Source: Flavobacteriia bacterium (GTDB lineage: Bacteria; Bacteroidota; Bacteroidia; Flavobacteriales_D; Crocinitomicaceae). From it: a stretch of DNA of 43,619 nucleotides. Of this stretch, positions 1 to 41,209 are shown piece by piece. The translations under genes were made by a program, and so were the position numbers. The notes beneath the pieces were generated by a model. It made no database searches. It was not told the origin of the DNA and was given only the letters and a program-made list of their open reading frames with translations. The stretch covers positions 1 to 43,619 of the forward strand of contig CANHRS010000016.1 in the NCBI GenBank assembly GCA_947463445.1. Reading direction: 5' to 3'. Within the stretch, counting starts at the first letter, position 1, and the number at the start of each line of letters is the position of its first letter.

Positions 1-93
1 TATTAGACATTAGACACTAGACTTCAGACACTAGAAATTAGATTTTGATTTAAATTAATTGATTCTAATTTTAGTCTAAAGTCTAAAGTCTCA
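1..93. repeat. 7-base-period inverted array (TTAGACT family), gene-less copy
   Basis: Positions 3-42 read as successive 7-base units of the form TTAGACA, TTAGACA, CTAGACT, TCAGACA, CTAGAAA, TTAGA. Positions 73-93 hold three units of the opposite orientation, AGTCTAA, AGTCTAA, AGTCTCA. The AT-rich centre (43-72) is itself bounded by AAATTAGA and TCTAATTT-like sequence, so the whole piece can fold as a long imperfect hairpin. The last unit contains the TGA stop codon (91-93 on the minus strand) of the LuxE-like gene. The array may extend beyond base 1. The same heptamers flank the S23-type gene near 36.6-37.1 kb. Confidence 0.8.
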
Positions 94-34230: not shown

Positions 34231-36636
34231 ATGAATAGAAATATTAGAAAAGTTGCCATCCTTGGTTCTGGTGTAATGGGATCACGAATTGCATGTCATT
34301 TTGCAAATATTGGTTGTGAAGTTGTTTTGTTAGATATTCAACCAAAAGAGTTAAATGATAAAGAATTAGCTGTAGGATTGACTTCCGATTCACCGATCTT
34401 TAAAAATAGAATCGTAAACGATGCACTTCAATTTGCTTTAAAAACAAATCCTTCTCCAATTTATTCAAAGCGTTTTATTTCAAGGATAATTACAGGGAAT
34501 TTCACAGACAATATGTCATTGATTTCAGATTGTGATTGGATAATTGAAGTTGTTATTGAACGTTTAGATATTAAAAAACAAATATTTGAACAAGTAGAAA
34601 AATATAGAAAACCGGGAACAATCATTTCTTCCAATACTTCAGGAATTCCTATTCACTTAATGTTGGAAGGTAGAACAGAAGATTTTCAACAACACTTTTG
34701 TGGGACACATTTTTTTAATCCACCTAGGTATTTACAATTACTGGAAATAATTCCAACTGCTCAAACAAAAAGTGAAATCATCGCGTTTTTAATGGATTTT
34801 GGAAGTCGATTCCTTGGTAAAAAGACAGTGTTGTGTAAAGATACTCCTGCATTTATTGCCAATAGAGTCGGAGTTTATTCGATTATGTCATTGTTTCATC
34901 TTGTCGGTGAAATGGATTTAACCGTGGAAGAGGTAGATAAATTGACTGGTCCAGTACTAGGTCGACCTAAATCTGCTACTTTCCGAACATGTGATGTTGT
35001 TGGATTAGATACTTTAGTTCATGTTGCGAATGGTTTGAGAGAAAATTGTTTGCTGGACGAAGAAAATAAAATATTTGAACTGCCTAAATATGTTTCAACA
35101 ATGGTTGAAAATAATTGGTTAGGGGCTAAGTCAAAACAAGGATTCTATAAAAAAGGAACGAATGAAGAAGGTAAAAGCGAAATTTTCACGCTAGACCTAA
35201 ATTCCATGGAATATCGTTCTGCTATAAAAGCTAAATTCAGTGCATTAGAAGCTGTAAAATCCATCGATGATTTACGAAAAAGAACAAAAATTCTATTTGA
35301 ATCAAAAGACAAAGCTGGTGAATTTTACCGAAAATTATTTGGCGGTTTGTTTGCTTATGTTTCTAATCGTATCCCCGAAATTTCCGATCAATTGTATAAA
35401 ATTGACGATGCGTTAAAGGCTGGATTCGGTTGGGAATTAGGTCCTTTTGAAACTTGGGATGCAATTGGTGTAGAAGCAGGTTTGAAATTGATTGAAGATG
35501 CTGGTTGTAAAGTAGCTCCATGGGTAGTAGATTTTGTGAAAACAGGTCAAAAAACATTTTACACCCAATGTGAAGGAAAAAAATATTTTTACAATCAGAT
35601 AGATAAAGAAAATCAAATTATACCTGGCACAGAAGATTTGATCATTCTAGATTCTTTAAGAGATTCACATACGGTATGGAAAAATTCGGATGTCTCAATT
35701 ATAGATATCGGTGAAGGTATCTTAAATGTGGAGTTCCATACAAAAATGAATACGATTGGAGGTGGAGTAGTGCAAGGACTTCATAAGGCAATTGATTTAG
35801 CAGAGAAAGAATACCGTGGTTTGGTTATTTATAATAATGGCCAAAATTTTTCTGCAGGTGCAAATGTCGGAATGATTTTTATGATGGCAATCGAGCAAGA
35901 ATACGATGAGTTAAATTTTGCAATAAAAGCTTTTCAAGATGTGATGATGCGTATACGTTATTGTAATGTTCCTGTGATTGTTGCGCCCCATAATATGGCG
36001 TTAGGCGGAAGTTGTGAAATGTCCATGCATGCAGATAAAGTAGTTGCGCATGCGGAACTATACATGGGGTTAGTAGAATTTGGTGTTGGTTTAATTCCTG
36101 GCGGCGGCGGTACGAAAGAGTTTGCTAAGCGACTTTCCGATGATTTAAAAGATGGTGATATTAAAATCAACAGATTTAGAGATAAATTTCTTACGATTGG
36201 ACAAGCAAAAGTTTCTACATCAGCACATGAAGCTTTTGATCTTGGATATCTACGTGTTGGAATAGATGAAGTGGTTGTTAGTAGAGATCATCAGTTGTTA
36301 CGTGCTAAACATGCGTGTTTAGAATTGGCGGATGCTGGTTATATTGCACCAAAAAGAGCAAAAAATATAACCGTGCTCGGAAAAGAAGCCTTAGGTATTG
36401 TCTATGTTGGAGCGCATTCTATGTTATCTGGAAATTATATGTCTAAACATGATCAAGTGATTTCCGAAAAAATTGGGTATGTATTAGCAGGTGGTGATTT
36501 GTCTGAAAACACATTAGTTTCCGAACAATATGTGTTGGATTTGGAAAGAAAAGCATTTCTCCAACTTTGTATGGAAAAGAAAACATTAGAACGCTTGCAA
36601 AGCATATTGAAACAGGGGAAAATTTTGAGAAATTAG
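34231..36636 (+). CDS. 3-hydroxyacyl-CoA dehydrogenase / enoyl-CoA hydratase fusion (FadN type)
   Basis: An 801-residue bifunctional beta-oxidation enzyme. The dehydrogenase comes first: NAD-binding GSGVMGSRIACHFANIG (11-27), THFFNPPRYLQLLEIIP with the catalytic His, and a second 3HCDH helical domain near 190-440. The hydratase domain follows (about 485-690), with NGQNFSAGANVGM and GLVEFGVGLIPGGGGTKEF holding the conserved Glu. This order is that of FadN of Bacillus, opposite to E. coli FadB and FadJ. It should act with the thiolase at 37074 to degrade fatty acids or the beta-oxidation-like tail of aromatic pathways. The TAG stop codon is part of the first 7-base repeat unit that precedes the S23-type gene. 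Confidence 0.92.
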   Translation: MNRNIRKVAILGSGVMGSRIACHFANIGCEVVLLDIQPKELNDKELAVGLTSDSPIFKNRIVNDALQFALKTNPSPIYSKRFISRIITGNFTDNMSLISDCDWIIEVVIERLDIKKQIFEQVEKYRKPGTIISSNTSGIPIHLMLEGRTEDFQQHFCGTHFFNPPRYLQLLEIIPTAQTKSEIIAFLMDFGSRFLGKKTVLCKDTPAFIANRVGVYSIMSLFHLVGEMDLTVEEVDKLTGPVLGRPKSATFRTCDVVGLDTLVHVANGLRENCLLDEENKIFELPKYVSTMVENNWLGAKSKQGFYKKGTNEEGKSEIFTLDLNSMEYRSAIKAKFSALEAVKSIDDLRKRTKILFESKDKAGEFYRKLFGGLFAYVSNRIPEISDQLYKIDDALKAGFGWELGPFETWDAIGVEAGLKLIEDAGCKVAPWVVDFVKTGQKTFYTQCEGKKYFYNQIDKENQIIPGTEDLIILDSLRDSHTVWKNSDVSIIDIGEGILNVEFHTKMNTIGGGVVQGLHKAIDLAEKEYRGLVIYNNGQNFSAGANVGMIFMMAIEQEYDELNFAIKAFQDVMMRIRYCNVPVIVAPHNMALGGSCEMSMHADKVVAHAELYMGLVEFGVGLIPGGGGTKEFAKRLSDDLKDGDIKINRFRDKFLTIGQAKVSTSAHEAFDLGYLRVGIDEVVVSRDHQLLRAKHACLELADAGYIAPKRAKNITVLGKEALGIVYVGAHSMLSGNYMSKHDQVISEKIGYVLAGGDLSENTLVSEQYVLDLERKAFLQLCMEKKTLERLQSILKQGKILRN

Positions 36637-36650
36637 ACCTAAGACTTGAG
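36633..36650 (+). repeat. Left arm of 7-base array around the S23-type gene
   Basis: TTAGACC and TAAGACT followed by TGAG read as 7-base units of the TTAGACT family. The first contains the stop codon of the preceding gene, and the last runs into the ATG of the S23-type gene. The orientation is opposite to the right arm at 37025-37059. Confidence 0.65.
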
Positions 36651-37001
36651 ATGAAGCATAATTTTAAAGAATTGTTAGTTTGGAAAAAATCGATTGAATT
36701 GGTGAAATCAATTTATCAGATAACCTCAATTTTGCCTTCGGATGAACGATTTGGGTTGATTAGTCAGATGAATAGGTTTAGCGTTTCAGTTCCCTCAAAT
36801 ATAGCTGAGGGATCAGGTAGAACATCAGATAAAGAGTTTCTTCATTTTTTAAACATTGCAATTGCTTCATCCTATGAATTAGAAACGCAATTAATTATTA
36901 CAAATGAGTTGTTTCATGTTGATATTGAATCTGTAGTAAAGCAAATTTCAGAAGTTCAAAAAATGATTTTAGGTCTTAAAAAAAATTTAGAAAATAAATA
37001 A
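36651..37001 (+). CDS. S23/IVP-type four-helix-bundle protein
   Basis: A 116-residue all-helical protein of the family found as 23S rRNA intervening-sequence proteins and related to the Avd accessory protein of diversity-generating retroelements. Characteristic blocks are FKELLVWKKSIELVKSIYQI, MNRFSVSVPSNIAEGSGR and FLHFLNIAIASSYELETQL. The ATG at 36651 is used because it starts the conserved domain (MKHNFKELLVW); the frame is open from 36567, but that extension lies over the end of the beta-oxidation gene. The gene separates the bifunctional enzyme from its partner thiolase and is bounded on both sides by 7-base repeats of opposite orientation, which suggests it arrived as a cassette. No reverse transcriptase, variable region or rRNA lies nearby. 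Confidence 0.88.
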   Translation: MKHNFKELLVWKKSIELVKSIYQITSILPSDERFGLISQMNRFSVSVPSNIAEGSGRTSDKEFLHFLNIAIASSYELETQLIITNELFHVDIESVVKQISEVQKMILGLKKNLENK

Positions 37002-37024
37002 TAATTGTAAAACAAATAGTATTC

Positions 37025-37059
37025 TAGTCTGAAGTCTAATGTCTGAAGTCTATAGTCTT
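37025..37059 (+). repeat. Right arm of 7-base array around the S23-type gene
   Basis: Five consecutive 7-base units: TAGTCTG, AAGTCTA, ATGTCTG, AAGTCTA, TAGTCTT. GTCTGAAGTCTA occurs twice here (37027 and 37041), and its reverse complement occurs at 18-29 in the array at the start of the window. The arm ends 14 bases before the thiolase ATG. Confidence 0.8.
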
Positions 37060-37073
37060 AAAATAATAAAATA

Positions 37074-38252
37074 ATGAGTCAAAACGCATACATAGTAGCA
37101 GGGTATAGAACTGCAATTGGAAAAGCTGGAAAAGGTGGTTTTCGCTTTTCTAGACCGGATGAATTAGGTGCGGAAGTTATTCGTCATTTGATGAGTCAGT
37201 TTCCACAATTAGATCCAGACAGAGTAGATGATGTAATTGTTGGTAATGCAACTCCAGAAGCGGAGCAAGGCTTAAATATGGGTAGAATGATTTCTTTAAT
37301 GGGTTTTGATTCTGTGAAAGTACCAGGTATTACGGTAAATAGATATTGTTCTTCAGGCTTAGAAACAATTGCGATGGCAAGGGCAAAAATCGAAGCAGGA
37401 ATGGCTGACTGTATCATCGCTGGTGGTGCTGAGTCTATGTCGATTATGGCGATGGGTGGCTGGAGAATTGTTCCTGGTTCTAAAGTTGCAAAAGAACATC
37501 CAGAATGGTATTGGGGGATGGGATTAACGGCTGAAGCTGTTGCAAATCAATTTAATATTTCCAGAGAAGCGCAAGATGCGTTTGCTGTTCATTCACACGA
37601 AAAAGCCTTGAAAGCTATTGCGGAAGGAAAGTTTAAAGAAGAAATAGTTCCGATTACTGTGGAACACATTTTTTTGGATAAAAATGAAAAAAGACAAGTG
37701 AAATCGTACGTAGTGGATACTGATGAAGGTCCACGTAAAAGTACGGTGGAAGGTTTAGGTGCATTGAAACCTGTTTTTGCAAATGGAGGCTCTATTACAG
37801 CGGGTAATTCTTCGCAAACTTCCGACGGCGCTGCATTTGTACTTGTAATGTCTGAACGTATGGTGAAAGAATTGAATATTGAACCTATTGCACGTTTAGC
37901 AAGTTATTCGGTTGTTGGTTTAGAACCAAGAATTATGGGAATGGGACCAGTAGGTGCAATTCCAAAAGCAATTGCACAAGCTGGTTTAACCATGAACGAT
38001 ATTAATTTGATTGAATTGAACGAAGCATTTGCCAGCCAATCGTTAGCGGTGATAGATGAATTGAAGTTGAATACAGAAATTGTAAATGTAAATGGAGGTG
38101 CCTTAGCGTTAGGACATCCTCTTGGTTGTTCTGGTGCGAAATTAACAGTTCAAATGCTATCGGAACTAAAAAGAAGAAAACAAAAATATGGGATTGTCAC
38201 CATGTGTGTTGGTACCGGTCAAGGTGCAGCAGGTGTTATTGAGATGTTATAG
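37074..38252 (+). CDS. fadA: Acetyl-CoA C-acyltransferase (thiolase)
   Basis: A 392-residue thiolase that cleaves 3-ketoacyl-CoA with CoA to acetyl-CoA and a shortened acyl-CoA. The nucleophilic Cys is in VNRYCSSGLETIAMA, the His in NGGALALGHPLGCSGAKL, and the second Cys in CVGTGQGAAG. Length and start (SQNAYIVAGYRTAIGKAG) are normal. It partners the bifunctional enzyme at 34231, from which it is separated by the S23-type cassette. A 3-oxoadipyl-CoA thiolase role in phenylacetate breakdown is an alternative that sequence alone does not settle. It ends at a hairpin terminator. Confidence 0.92.
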   Translation: MSQNAYIVAGYRTAIGKAGKGGFRFSRPDELGAEVIRHLMSQFPQLDPDRVDDVIVGNATPEAEQGLNMGRMISLMGFDSVKVPGITVNRYCSSGLETIAMARAKIEAGMADCIIAGGAESMSIMAMGGWRIVPGSKVAKEHPEWYWGMGLTAEAVANQFNISREAQDAFAVHSHEKALKAIAEGKFKEEIVPITVEHIFLDKNEKRQVKSYVVDTDEGPRKSTVEGLGALKPVFANGGSITAGNSSQTSDGAAFVLVMSERMVKELNIEPIARLASYSVVGLEPRIMGMGPVGAIPKAIAQAGLTMNDINLIELNEAFASQSLAVIDELKLNTEIVNVNGGALALGHPLGCSGAKLTVQMLSELKRRKQKYGIVTMCVGTGQGAAGVIEML

Positions 38253-38387: not shown

Positions 38388-38395
38388 TATTTTTG
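38388..38395 (+). promoter_or_regulatory. Bacteroidota -7 promoter element, T9SS protein gene
   Basis: TATTTTTG matches TAnnTTTG, 27 bases before the ATG at 38423. It overlaps the first codon of the longer possible reading (38393), so supports the shorter start. Confidence 0.5.
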
Positions 38396-38422
38396 TTACT
38401 AATATTAATTAATAATTATTAT

Positions 38423-41209
38423 ATGAAGAGAAAATTACTTTTATCATTTGCAGTCTTTGCTACGGCATTGAGTGTGAATGCGCAAAAAAGAGGGAGCAAC
38501 TATTCTTTGAATGGTGTTAAATCTCCAAAGCATGTTTCTGTTGTTTCTAATTCATTAGAAACAAATAACGTCCTACAAAATGTTGACTTGAATAAAACAT
38601 TGGATTTCAAAAGCACTAAGAAAAGAGGAGTGAAAACTGTGCAAGATACTTCTCGTTTTTTTGTATTCAAAAGATCCTATGCGTCTCCTGGAACAAGTAG
38701 TACTATATTACAACCATATTATTATCCAAATGCAGGTGATGCTACTAAAGATTCAATTGAGTTGACTTCTTGTTTTCAAATAATTCCTAACTTGAATAAA
38801 TCAAAAGTTACGTATAAAGGTGTTACCATGCAATTAGTTTCCTTGAATAAAAAGCAAGGATTTGCTAATGTTGACCTTAAAGTTTATGATGACAAGGGAG
38901 CAACTATCGCTAAAGCTACACAAAAAGTTTTATATAGTGCATCAGCGTATGGTACATATCACTTCATGTTTGATAAACCATTAACTACAGATGCTAATGT
39001 TTTTGTAGCAGTAGAGCCTTCTACAGCGAATGATACTGTAAGAGTACCAACTTCAGGTGCTTACAGAAACTCTGCTATCTCTTGTAATATTTCTGGGAAC
39101 AAACTAACACTAGTATCACCTGCACCAACTACACCTGCTAATATTGGTACGGGATTTTGGACTGGTCAAGAAATCACAGGCACAGGAATTCCTGCTGGAA
39201 CTAAAATAGTTGGTATTACTGCTGCTACTTCTTCAACTCCTCTTACATACACTATTTCTTCTACATTATCTGCACCAGTGACTAACTTAGTTGTTACCGG
39301 AGTTAATAATACATTTGATGTATTGAAAAATCAAGCTGGTTTAATGTATCTTAAATTTCCAGTTGTAGCAGGAACAAAAAATCCTGATTTTACTAAAGCG
39401 CCTGCTGAAGCTCCAGATTTTATCCATTATTTAAATGCAGGTACTACTGCTGCTCCTAATTGGAAAGCCTATGATGCTCACATTACAATGTATCCAATTG
39501 TTGAGTATACCTATGATGTAAATCCTGCAGTTGATAACAAATGTTTAGGTAATAATAAAGTAGTTAATGTTACTTATGCAACTACTGATGCATATTCTTC
39601 TGTTGCAAAAAATCCAGTTTTAAATCAAATGGCTTTTTGGTCAAGTTTATTAGGTTGGAACAAGAAAACAGGATATTATTATTCTCTTGCTTCTGTAAAT
39701 GCTAAAAGTGGAGGTCTTTTCAAAGATACTTTAGATCACTCTAATGCTACTTTTGCATACAAATATACTGCTGCTACGGATGCAAATAATGATACATTAG
39801 TTGTAACTGATTTTATGTTGCCTTATGGTTTAATTAAAGTTGCATCTATGGTGGTTAACCAAAGTACTTTCTTATTAAGTTCAAAATTAACAGAAGTAAC
39901 AACAATAACTCCTGTTGCACCAAAGTGTTATTACGATAAAGCGAATGATGCATTAAGTCTTAAAGGATATGCTCCTTACACAGGTCTTCCTAAAGTTGGT
40001 GATGCTGCAGGTACATTTAAAGTAACGGATGCTAATGGATGTTCTATAGATATTACAACAACTGCTCCTATTGCTGCTGTACCAGCTAAATTTGATTGGA
40101 CTTCTGCTCCAACAGTAGAGAACGCTAAATGTTTTGGTGATAAAGCAAAAGTTACGGTTGCTATTACAAAACCAATTTCTGGTGCATATACTGGATTGAT
40201 ACAAGAATTTGCTACTACAGCTTCTGTTCAAACTAAAAACATCGTAGTTGCTGACCCTAATGGATGTCGTGACACTTTGAAAAATGTTTCAATACCAGCA
40301 GGACCAGCTAAAGTTGTAGCTACTGCAACTGTAACAGGTGCTAAATGTTTTGGTGAAGAAGCTTCAGTTGAAGTGAAAGCTACTGGTGGTACAGGTGTAA
40401 TTACTGGTGTTGGAATTAAAAAATTCTCAGCTACTGCTGCTAGTACTCAAAAAATTGAAGTTTTAGATGCTAACAATTGTGTTGCTACAGTGGATGCTGC
40501 TATCTTAGCTGCTCCAGCTAAAGTTGTAGCTACTGCAACTGTAACAGATGCTAAATGTTTTGGTGAAGAAGCTTCAGTTGAAGTGAAAGCTACTGGTGGT
40601 ACAGGTGTAATTACTGGTGTTGGAATTAAAAAATTCTCAGCTACTGCTGCTAGCACTCAAAAAATTGAAGTTTTAGATGCAAACAAATGTGTTGCTACAG
40701 TGGATGCTGCTATCAAAGCTGCACCAGTGAAACTTGAAGTAACTACTGCTGCTACAACTGCAACTTCTCCTGCTGCTGCTGATGGTCAAGCTACTGCTAC
40801 TCCAACAGGAGGAACAGCTCCTTATACTTATGCTTGGGATAATACAGATAAGTCTACTACAGCTGAAATTAAAGTTGTAAAAGGTACTTATAACGTAGTT
40901 GTTAAAGATGCTAACAATTGTACTGTGAATGGAAGTGTTAAAGTTTCTTCTCTTTCTGTTGAGTCTTTATCAATTTCTGGTTTATCAATCTATCCTAATC
41001 CAGTTGCAAATGAATTAAACGTTAAATTTAACGCTATCTCTGCTGCAACAATTGAATTAGTGAATGTTGCTGGTCAAGTTATTGCTTCTAAAGATGCAAG
41101 TGAATTTGCAAATGTAACTTTTGATACTGCTACATTAAATGCAGGTGTTTATTTCGTAAACATCAAAGTTGCTGAAGGTGTATTCACACAAAAAATCATC
41201 AAAGAATAA
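38423..41209 (+). CDS. T9SS-secreted protein with SprB-like repeats
   Basis: A 928-residue secreted or cell-surface protein. It starts at 38423 with a signal peptide ending ATALSVNAQ. Residues about 30-540 are a strand-rich region without a recognised domain. From about 555 there are SprB-like repeats, each with a conserved AKCFG start and a DxNxC end. Two are almost identical 70-residue units (628-697 and 698-767). A PYTYAWDN-type repeat follows. Residues about 850-928 are a type A T9SS sorting domain (SIYPNPVANELNV to GVFTQKIIKE), so it should cross the outer membrane through the gliding-linked secretion system and may be anchored. An adhesin role is the usual reading. Only the -7 element at 38388 is seen upstream. 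Confidence 0.88.
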   Translation: MKRKLLLSFAVFATALSVNAQKRGSNYSLNGVKSPKHVSVVSNSLETNNVLQNVDLNKTLDFKSTKKRGVKTVQDTSRFFVFKRSYASPGTSSTILQPYYYPNAGDATKDSIELTSCFQIIPNLNKSKVTYKGVTMQLVSLNKKQGFANVDLKVYDDKGATIAKATQKVLYSASAYGTYHFMFDKPLTTDANVFVAVEPSTANDTVRVPTSGAYRNSAISCNISGNKLTLVSPAPTTPANIGTGFWTGQEITGTGIPAGTKIVGITAATSSTPLTYTISSTLSAPVTNLVVTGVNNTFDVLKNQAGLMYLKFPVVAGTKNPDFTKAPAEAPDFIHYLNAGTTAAPNWKAYDAHITMYPIVEYTYDVNPAVDNKCLGNNKVVNVTYATTDAYSSVAKNPVLNQMAFWSSLLGWNKKTGYYYSLASVNAKSGGLFKDTLDHSNATFAYKYTAATDANNDTLVVTDFMLPYGLIKVASMVVNQSTFLLSSKLTEVTTITPVAPKCYYDKANDALSLKGYAPYTGLPKVGDAAGTFKVTDANGCSIDITTTAPIAAVPAKFDWTSAPTVENAKCFGDKAKVTVAITKPISGAYTGLIQEFATTASVQTKNIVVADPNGCRDTLKNVSIPAGPAKVVATATVTGAKCFGEEASVEVKATGGTGVITGVGIKKFSATAASTQKIEVLDANNCVATVDAAILAAPAKVVATATVTDAKCFGEEASVEVKATGGTGVITGVGIKKFSATAASTQKIEVLDANKCVATVDAAIKAAPVKLEVTTAATTATSPAAADGQATATPTGGTAPYTYAWDNTDKSTTAEIKVVKGTYNVVVKDANNCTVNGSVKVSSLSVESLSISGLSIYPNPVANELNVKFNAISAATIELVNVAGQVIASKDASEFANVTFDTATLNAGVYFVNIKVAEGVFTQKIIKE
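40304..40723 (+). repeat. Two nearly identical 210-base tandem repeats in the T9SS protein gene
   Basis: Units 40304-40513 and 40514-40723 are in frame and almost identical in DNA, differing at only a few positions (for example GGT versus GAT, AGT versus AGC, CTAACAATTGT versus CAAACAAATGT). A more diverged unit precedes them. The identity points to recent duplication or gene conversion and a length that can change by slippage or recombination. Confidence 0.95.

Follow-up and report, generated by a model that had tools for sequence, protein, structure and literature searches.

A small gene-bearing element lying between two beta-oxidation genes of a Crocinitomicaceae bacterium probably belongs to a widespread class of small selfish elements, each of which would consist of one S23 gene between inverted arrays of an element-characteristic 7-nt, sometimes 8-nt, unit. 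It occupies approximately positions 36626-37060 of the window, by which we mean the whole 43,619-nt stretch analyzed here (Flavobacteriia bacterium, assembly GCA_947463445.1, contig CANHRS010000016.1). The S23 (23S rRNA-intervening-sequence protein) gene, at 36651..37001, encodes a 116-residue protein of a four-helix-bundle family and is flanked upstream by a FadN-type gene for a 3-hydroxyacyl-CoA dehydrogenase / enoyl-CoA hydratase (34231..36636) and downstream by a thiolase gene (37074..38252), all three being on the + strand. The left arm, read from the sequence, is composed of four in-register heptads on the + strand (TGAGAAA TTAGACC TAAGACT TGAGATG, 36626..36653) that have the core TNAGA in common, followed by C in two of the four. 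The right arm contains five heptads (AGTCTGA AGTCTAA TGTCTGA AGTCTAT AGTCTTA, 37026..37060) in which the left unit is inverted onto the - strand, and it ends at 37060, with a gap of 13 nt to the thiolase ATG at 37074. The first left heptad is formed by the last codons of the FadN-type gene, the stop codon TAG of that gene (36634-36636) falls within the arm, and the fourth heptad holds the S23 ATG (36651-36653). An initial annotation of the window had described the gene, the stop codon, the arms and their orientation just as we find them, with a shorter left arm; it had also placed the insertion exactly at the stop codon, which is right as to position and incomplete in that the arm also covers the last sense codons, where the changes are synonymous.

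At the window locus alone, in 2000 dinucleotide shuffles confined to the window sequence, the score of the right array was reached in two shuffles and that of the left array in 144, which is weak by itself, and the match between the left arm and the reverse-complemented right arm was equalled in seven. Among 38 other window open reading frames (ORFs) of at least 100 aa, taken from all six frames and not filtered for real genes, one has an array in a flank, and none has arrays on both sides or an arm match at the threshold given below. The main weight of the evidence is the comparison across S23 genes, not this locus by itself.

Four S23 genes are present in the window's own genome (G000 below), each with its own unit as judged by eye (TNAGACN, TTAGNNA, GTGACGR, and the 8-nt AATGTNNN), and throughout the family the unit differs from locus to locus. 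In a first collection of 146 S23 genes, reduced to 142 usable ones by excluding those with short flanks or N, 90 flank pairs matched themselves best at a lag of 7 or 14 (23 after shuffling) and 41 at a lag of 8 or 15 (19 after shuffling). With an arm match defined as a score of at least 24 between the left arm and the reverse-complemented right arm, 88 of the 142 loci match, compared with 2/142 shuffled loci, about 5% of mismatched pairs, 7/88 other ORFs, and 24/142 in the same-orientation comparison. A de-duplicated set, from which identical coding sequences were removed and in which near-identical relatives were kept (154 usable of 161), contains 126 genes with a 7- or 8-nt-unit array in one or both flanks and 53 with arrays in both, against 6 and 0 after shuffling. 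The periods of the two arms agree in all 53 cases, 39 of them 7/7 and 14 of them 8/8, with none mixed; arrays in both flanks and an arm match were found for 4 and 6, respectively, of 134 control ORFs at these loci. The flank periodicity that the initial annotation had proposed to look for beside S23 genes elsewhere is thus mostly there. It recurs in a later set, assembled around one Desulfuromonadales-titled genome plus two genes of G502 and retrieved by a profile derived from the first set (its member L272 is L083 of that set, from G502): at the thresholds of the first set, 27 of 30 usable loci (of 33) have an array (2 shuffled), 14 have both arms (0 shuffled) with periods agreeing in all 14, and 19 have an arm match (0 shuffled; 10/173 mismatched pairs). 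For 22 additional paralogues from Bacteroidota the same three counts are 14, 3, and 11 (shuffled 0, 0, and 1). Eleven S23 copies on cyanobacterial plasmids were read, with arms that include the units AGTAGGG, AACAGGG, and CAGGTGA; one of these plasmid loci, L156, lacks clear arms, and in L155 the S23 gene lies between long AAAAGCT/AAAAGCC arrays that share one orientation instead of being inverted. Chance and base composition as the source of the arms are ruled out by the shuffles, the mismatched pairs, and the other ORFs.

The arrays have a consistent polarity. G exceeds C in 80% of the 5'-side arrays (n=90) and C exceeds G in 84% of the 3'-side arrays (n=89). Left arrays most often contain three to four units and right arrays four to five. 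A parsable unit common to both arms was obtained at 41 loci, 30 of which have variable positions; at these 30, which are family loci and not classical rRNA intervening-sequence cases, the variable positions agree at 0.336 between arms versus 0.384 within one arm, and the best pairing register shows no advantage over permuted unit order. The arms look like one word in opposite orientation, with no sign of selection for base-by-base pairing. An RNA stem as the selected feature is rejected on these grounds, since the variable positions are not complementary beyond within-arm similarity, and the RNA-processing cassette that the initial annotation offered as one option is left without support from pairing. 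A scan of the window against Rfam returned no match, so a known Rfam RNA is rejected as well.

Movement of the gene-bearing unit can be followed at the fadN-thiolase junction, which was read in ten genomes of the genus. The junction is empty in G004 and G009, so that the empty sites which the initial annotation suggested seeking in relatives do exist; it is occupied by type A S23 with TNAGAC arms in G000, G001, G005, G012, and G006, and by a different S23, type B, with AAAGAYN-like arms in G008, G010, and G003. The number of left-arm heptads, counted by eye, is four in G000, five in G001, and eight in G012. The type A match of G006 (L069, 1010-1352) extends over 343 nt for 114 residues and seems to be frameshifted, and this S23 gene seems to be a decaying copy whose arms are still present. 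In G005 (L170) the type A element is directly followed by an orphan right arm of type B, which is a replacement scar at one junction.

Comparison of G000 with G001, in window coordinates, gives 79-85% identity in the flanks and 98-99% in the S23 gene. Dense differences stop at 36615 and restart at 37059, so that the moved unit extends over 36616..37058; within it the two copies differ by eight substitutions, located at 36639-36982, and by a single 7-nt indel of the left arm. Synonymous divergence (dS) is 2.70 at the fadN end, 1.39 in the thiolase gene, and 0.014 in S23. The flanks of G000 are nearer to those of G008 and G010 (fadN end 91-95%, thiolase 84-93%, dS 0.31-0.86), which nonetheless carry type B, with an S23 dS of 1.2-1.5 relative to G000. 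These comparisons indicate that the S23 unit has moved laterally between congeners.

Units without a gene behave in a similar manner. The window itself has an inverted pair of NTNAGAC arrays at its left end, which is also that of the contig (1..93, with a left arm at ~2-44 and a right arm at ~71-93) and no gene between the arms. The genome as a whole contains 22 three-unit TNAGAC matches and none of the reversed control, where counts of the three-unit pattern include overlaps, such that one long array counts several times. Six sites in this genome, window 1-93 among them, were read as inverted pairs, and the pair at L007 has a spacer of more than 100 nt. At the L005 junction, 0 nt separate the stop and start codons in G004 and 7 nt in G006; a type A hairpin is present in G000, G008, and G001, a type B hairpin in G010, G005, and G009, B-like hairpins in G003 and G002, and other sequence in G012 (49 nt) and in G007 and G011 (17 nt). 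At L016 the junction of G009 is 5 nt, type A occurs in G000 and G005, and type B in G010, G001, and G008; the hairpin of G002 is B-like and its right arms are repeated, a third type is present in G004, the sequence is of another kind in G012, G011, and G007, and G006 and G003 gave no match. Identities over 150 nt on each side show that G000 (A) and G010 (B) at L005 have flanks 0.987 and 0.947 identical, and that G000 (A) and G001 (B) at L016 have flanks 0.94 and 0.953 identical, whereas G000 and G005, both of type A at L016, have flanks of only 0.833 and 0.82; the L016 B carriers G001, G008, and G010 have flanks that are alike (0.87-0.93). Because A and B are swapped despite near-identical flanks and type A is shared despite diverged ones, exchange of the hairpin type is, at least in part, independent of the flanks. 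A given stop/start junction can therefore hold a gene-bearing or gene-less unit in one congener and none, or one of another type, in the next, with sharp edges. Long-tract recombination as the sole cause of the swaps is disfavored by the edges, the dS contrast, and the flank identities, with a breakpoint at the arms in G005 remaining to its credit.

The dispersed arrays are linked to the S23 gene whose arms they resemble. Three-unit TNAGAC matches number 22, 13, 12, 9, and 18 in the five genomes of the genus with type A S23 versus 0-5 in the remaining eight, of which five were read at the fadN junction (all except G002, G007, and G011); as separate arrays counted by eye, S23 arms included, the numbers are approximately 14, 7, 7, 7, and 8 versus 0 to 3. 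In a comparison of 64 genomes, with S23 genes partly loaded per genome, at least three further TNAGAC matches are found in 9 of the 11 with a TNAGAC-armed S23 and in 5 of the 53 without (Fisher 3e-6, uncorrected for relatedness); one of these five, G005, was misfiled among the 53 through de-duplication. On a tree of 120 S23 genes the period changes between 7 and 8 on 17 occasions, whereas 300 shuffles average 27 changes and never have fewer than 23; the period label is the better lag, which may err for mixed arrays such as L003. For S23 genes at different sites, arms are similar (score of at least 24) in 22% of 138 pairs with 55-70% protein identity, pairs that share recurring loci and are not independent, in 8% of 1916 pairs at 45-55%, and in 6% below that. 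On both measures the S23 protein and the unit co-vary.

The encoded protein belongs to the S23 / 23S_rRNA_IVP family, scoring 115.1 bits against PF05635 (cut-off 33.8) and 110.3 bits against TIGR02436 (cut-off 24). PF05635 is its only Pfam match, and it is not a REP-associated tyrosine transposase by that assignment. Members of this family (S23/IVP genes) are common: of 296 Bacteroidota genomes sampled, 232 carry them at E <= 0.001 and 220 with a score above the cut-off. Structures have been solved and, to our knowledge, no function has been assigned to these genes. The relatives 2GSC and 2RLD, one entry each, both contain five chains, and the title of the former describes an assembly of five four-helix bundles (reference list of PMC3936711). 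S23 is mostly under purifying selection, with dN/dS of 0.12, 0.13, and 0.15 in three of four comparisons. Median distances are 62 nt from the upstream stop codon and 58 nt to the downstream start codon, and among the 142 cases with both neighbors called the gene is antisense to both in six.

S23 genes L155, L160, and L163 of cyanobacterial plasmids are embedded in CRISPR-Cas operons; in two genera the gene is placed between cas6 and cas4, and in another between cas10/cmr2 and cmr3. Such genes in cas loci have been reported before (PMC3936711; PMC10910872, in a figure legend), and their presence there may reflect insertion rather than a Cas function. In relatives of G503, the S23 genes L314, L327, and L328 lie, by eye, at what appears to be one junction of lipopolysaccharide-heptose genes, apparently a recurrent site like the fadN-thiolase junction in Bacteroidota. 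Elsewhere in the window, a tandem repeat of 210 bases occurs twice, with 96% matching, at 40303-40727 inside a large ORF (38393-41209) whose product resembles, by eye, a secreted, C-terminally sorted protein.

We regard it as rather likely that these gene-bearing and gene-less units together form REPIN/RAYT-like elements without a known transposase, in which S23 would recognize the unit. In the mechanism we propose, S23, probably acting as an assembly of five, would bind the unit as DNA, the simpler target given that the two arms carry their shared word on opposite strands, and would gather the two ends. Copying or conversion into a new junction would follow, performed by an enzyme not encoded in the element; since the element has no recognizable nuclease or polymerase, some other enzyme would have to move it. 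The arrays would then grow and shrink unit by unit, gene-less inverted pairs would be non-autonomous derivatives, and insertions would persist mainly between the stop and start codons of operons and, as classical intervening sequences, within 23S rRNA. The initial annotation had suggested a mobile cassette with a logic comparable to REPIN/RAYT systems, and both suggestions are supported by the common arms, the dispersed gene-less inverted pairs of the S23-arm unit, the empty or swapped sites, and the unit moved between congeners. Its proposal that the protein recognizes the heptamer has indirect support only, in that protein and unit co-vary and TNAGAC arrays accompany the gene among genomes; recognition itself we infer from these patterns.

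Several results weigh against this interpretation. Profile scans of S23 with Pfam and TIGR models show no catalytic or mobility domain, the fourth dN/dS comparison (L056/L002) gives 1.01, on very few changes, and S23 is co-directional with both neighbors in 126 of 142 cases, which fits a role in RNA or in the operon too. Six genomes, from which 22 S23 genes were compared in 32 pairs, yielded no near-identical S23 genes at two sites of one genome, the highest pairwise identity being 59.5%, and no target-site duplication is evident by eye at the empty and filled junctions. The first heptad spans sense codons whose amino acids are kept through synonymous changes, and this may suggest growth in place. 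Arms are also less than universal: 54 of the 142 S23 loci and 11 of the 22 extra Bacteroidota paralogues fall under the arm-match threshold, a few loci, such as L155, have arrays in the same orientation, and an array lies in at least one flank of 32 of the 134 control ORFs, arrays without S23 being common too. With regard to the genome link, the reversed control of TNAGAC gave 5 matches in G006, 3 in G010, and 1 in G009 (0 in G000 and most others); the tree period test and the identity-bin comparison are, like the Fisher value, uncorrected for relatedness. The link is weaker for unit B, with 16 matches in G003 (14 in one array), 3 in G008, and 2 in G010, and also 4 in G012, 3 in G001, 2 in G005, and 1 in G002, the control giving 3 in G004, 1 in G008, and 1 in G009.

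It is unlikely, in our judgment, that the element acts instead at the RNA level as an intervening sequence, with arms that pair in the operon mRNA, RNase III excising the S23 segment, and S23 binding the stem or aiding processing. S23 genes are indeed known within 23S rRNA intervening sequences in Leptospira and Coxiella, where the inverted ends are cut by RNase III, and in Coxiella tandem GACAGAT heptamers precede the S23p ORF in strain-dependent number (PMC4990558). An S23 gene on an Azospirillum plasmid, found by tblastn, lies within a 23S rRNA gene (RF02541, 2540.5 bits) and has the left arm AGGACGG ATGACAG AGGACGG AGGACAG with inverted equivalents on the right; the prevailing co-directionality with both neighbors points the same way. 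Pairing in RNA is opposed by the variable positions, no more complementary than within-arm similarity provides and in a register no better than permuted, by the six genes antisense to both neighbors, and by the persistence of gene-less pairs. A reading that seems less likely again would have the arrays maintained by the host as regulatory or spacer sequences at operon junctions, with S23 as a regulator and the changes at each site due to interspecies homologous recombination. Location between stop and start codons suits it, as do the TAACTGA arrays that closely precede start codons in Beggiatoaceae and were read as translational (PMC4679880), the one G005 breakpoint inside or beside the arms, and the similar flanks of the three L016 B carriers. 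It has difficulty with edges close to the array ends, with dS that differs about 100-fold between unit and flank, with L005 hairpin types that differ within nearly identical flanks and an L016 type shared across diverged ones, and with congener junctions of 0-7 nt that lack any array.

Ordinary microsatellite slippage in intergenic DNA, with S23 hitchhiking, could account for unit numbers of four, five, and eight among congeners and for the arrays in control flanks; it is already disfavored by the inverted arms of a shared unit, and we think it very improbable given both-arm arrays of shared period in 53/154 S23 genes versus 4/134 control ORFs with both, the inverted orientation, and arrays at GC-rich loci as well. 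Hardly credible at all is a relict of a diversity-generating retroelement in which S23 is Avd: Avd and PF05635 have been reported to be homologous (PMC10053308), and the window protein does match the Avd model weakly, but at 21.4 bits it is far below the cut-off of 80, which places it outside Avd, and its neighbors are beta-oxidation genes, not a reverse transcriptase.

Heptameric repeats have been described in bacteria more than once without a mechanism (PMC4692102, PMC4679880), and connecting them with S23 gives each a testable role, in which the array is the likely target of the protein. The S23 element suggests a widespread and poorly recognized kind of mobile DNA and offers a simple system for such movement, one protein of 116 residues and one 7-nt word, and the S23-bearing 23S rRNA intervening sequence is recast as one landing site of a general element. 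More tentatively, and with rather less confidence than we place in the window element, S23 elements could constitute a transposase-less mobile class spanning several phyla, in which a five-part S23 assembly reads a lineage-specific 7- or 8-nt word; such a class would explain the intervening sequences, the heptamers of cyanobacteria, xanthomonads, and Beggiatoaceae, and the hairpins of Bacteroidota.

Several known systems come close to the element. Xanthomonas has the heptameric repeat GGGANTN, with 70 convergent inverted pairs in Xcc and 75 in Xac, and Nostoc has GGGGAYT, with few inverted pairs (PMC4692102). The window arrays resemble the Xanthomonas repeats in having a 7-nt unit with fixed and variable positions and a mostly intergenic location, and have the 7-nt unit in common with those of Nostoc and Beggiatoaceae. 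The words 'S23', 'helix bundle', and 'intervening' are all missing from the texts of PMC4692102 and PMC4679880; Xanthomonas does have an S23 protein, XCC0516 (2GSC). Beyond the Coxiella report, a link between S23 and heptamer arrays is absent among the open-literature matches listed, a scope outside which most subscription papers fall. The element differs from Avd of diversity-generating retroelements in that no reverse transcriptase is among its adjacent genes. With the 23S rRNA intervening sequences it has in common the protein family, inverted ends, and a length of ~430 bp; in contrast to them, it sits between two protein genes and not inside 23S rRNA, its arms are degenerate short-unit arrays with no sign of selected pairing, and its gene-less copies are dispersed. 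Because the Azospirillum copy has heptad arms and Coxiella has tandem heptamers, the S23-bearing 23S rRNA intervening sequence looks like one placement of the same element. Unlike REPIN/RAYT systems (PMC3116915), the element encodes S23 and not a tyrosine transposase, and its arms are tandem 7- or 8-nt units, not one palindromic REP; like them, it combines a gene with a short repeat and an element-specific word, and gene-less inverted doublets of the repeat flanking that gene are dispersed at extragenic sites through the genome.

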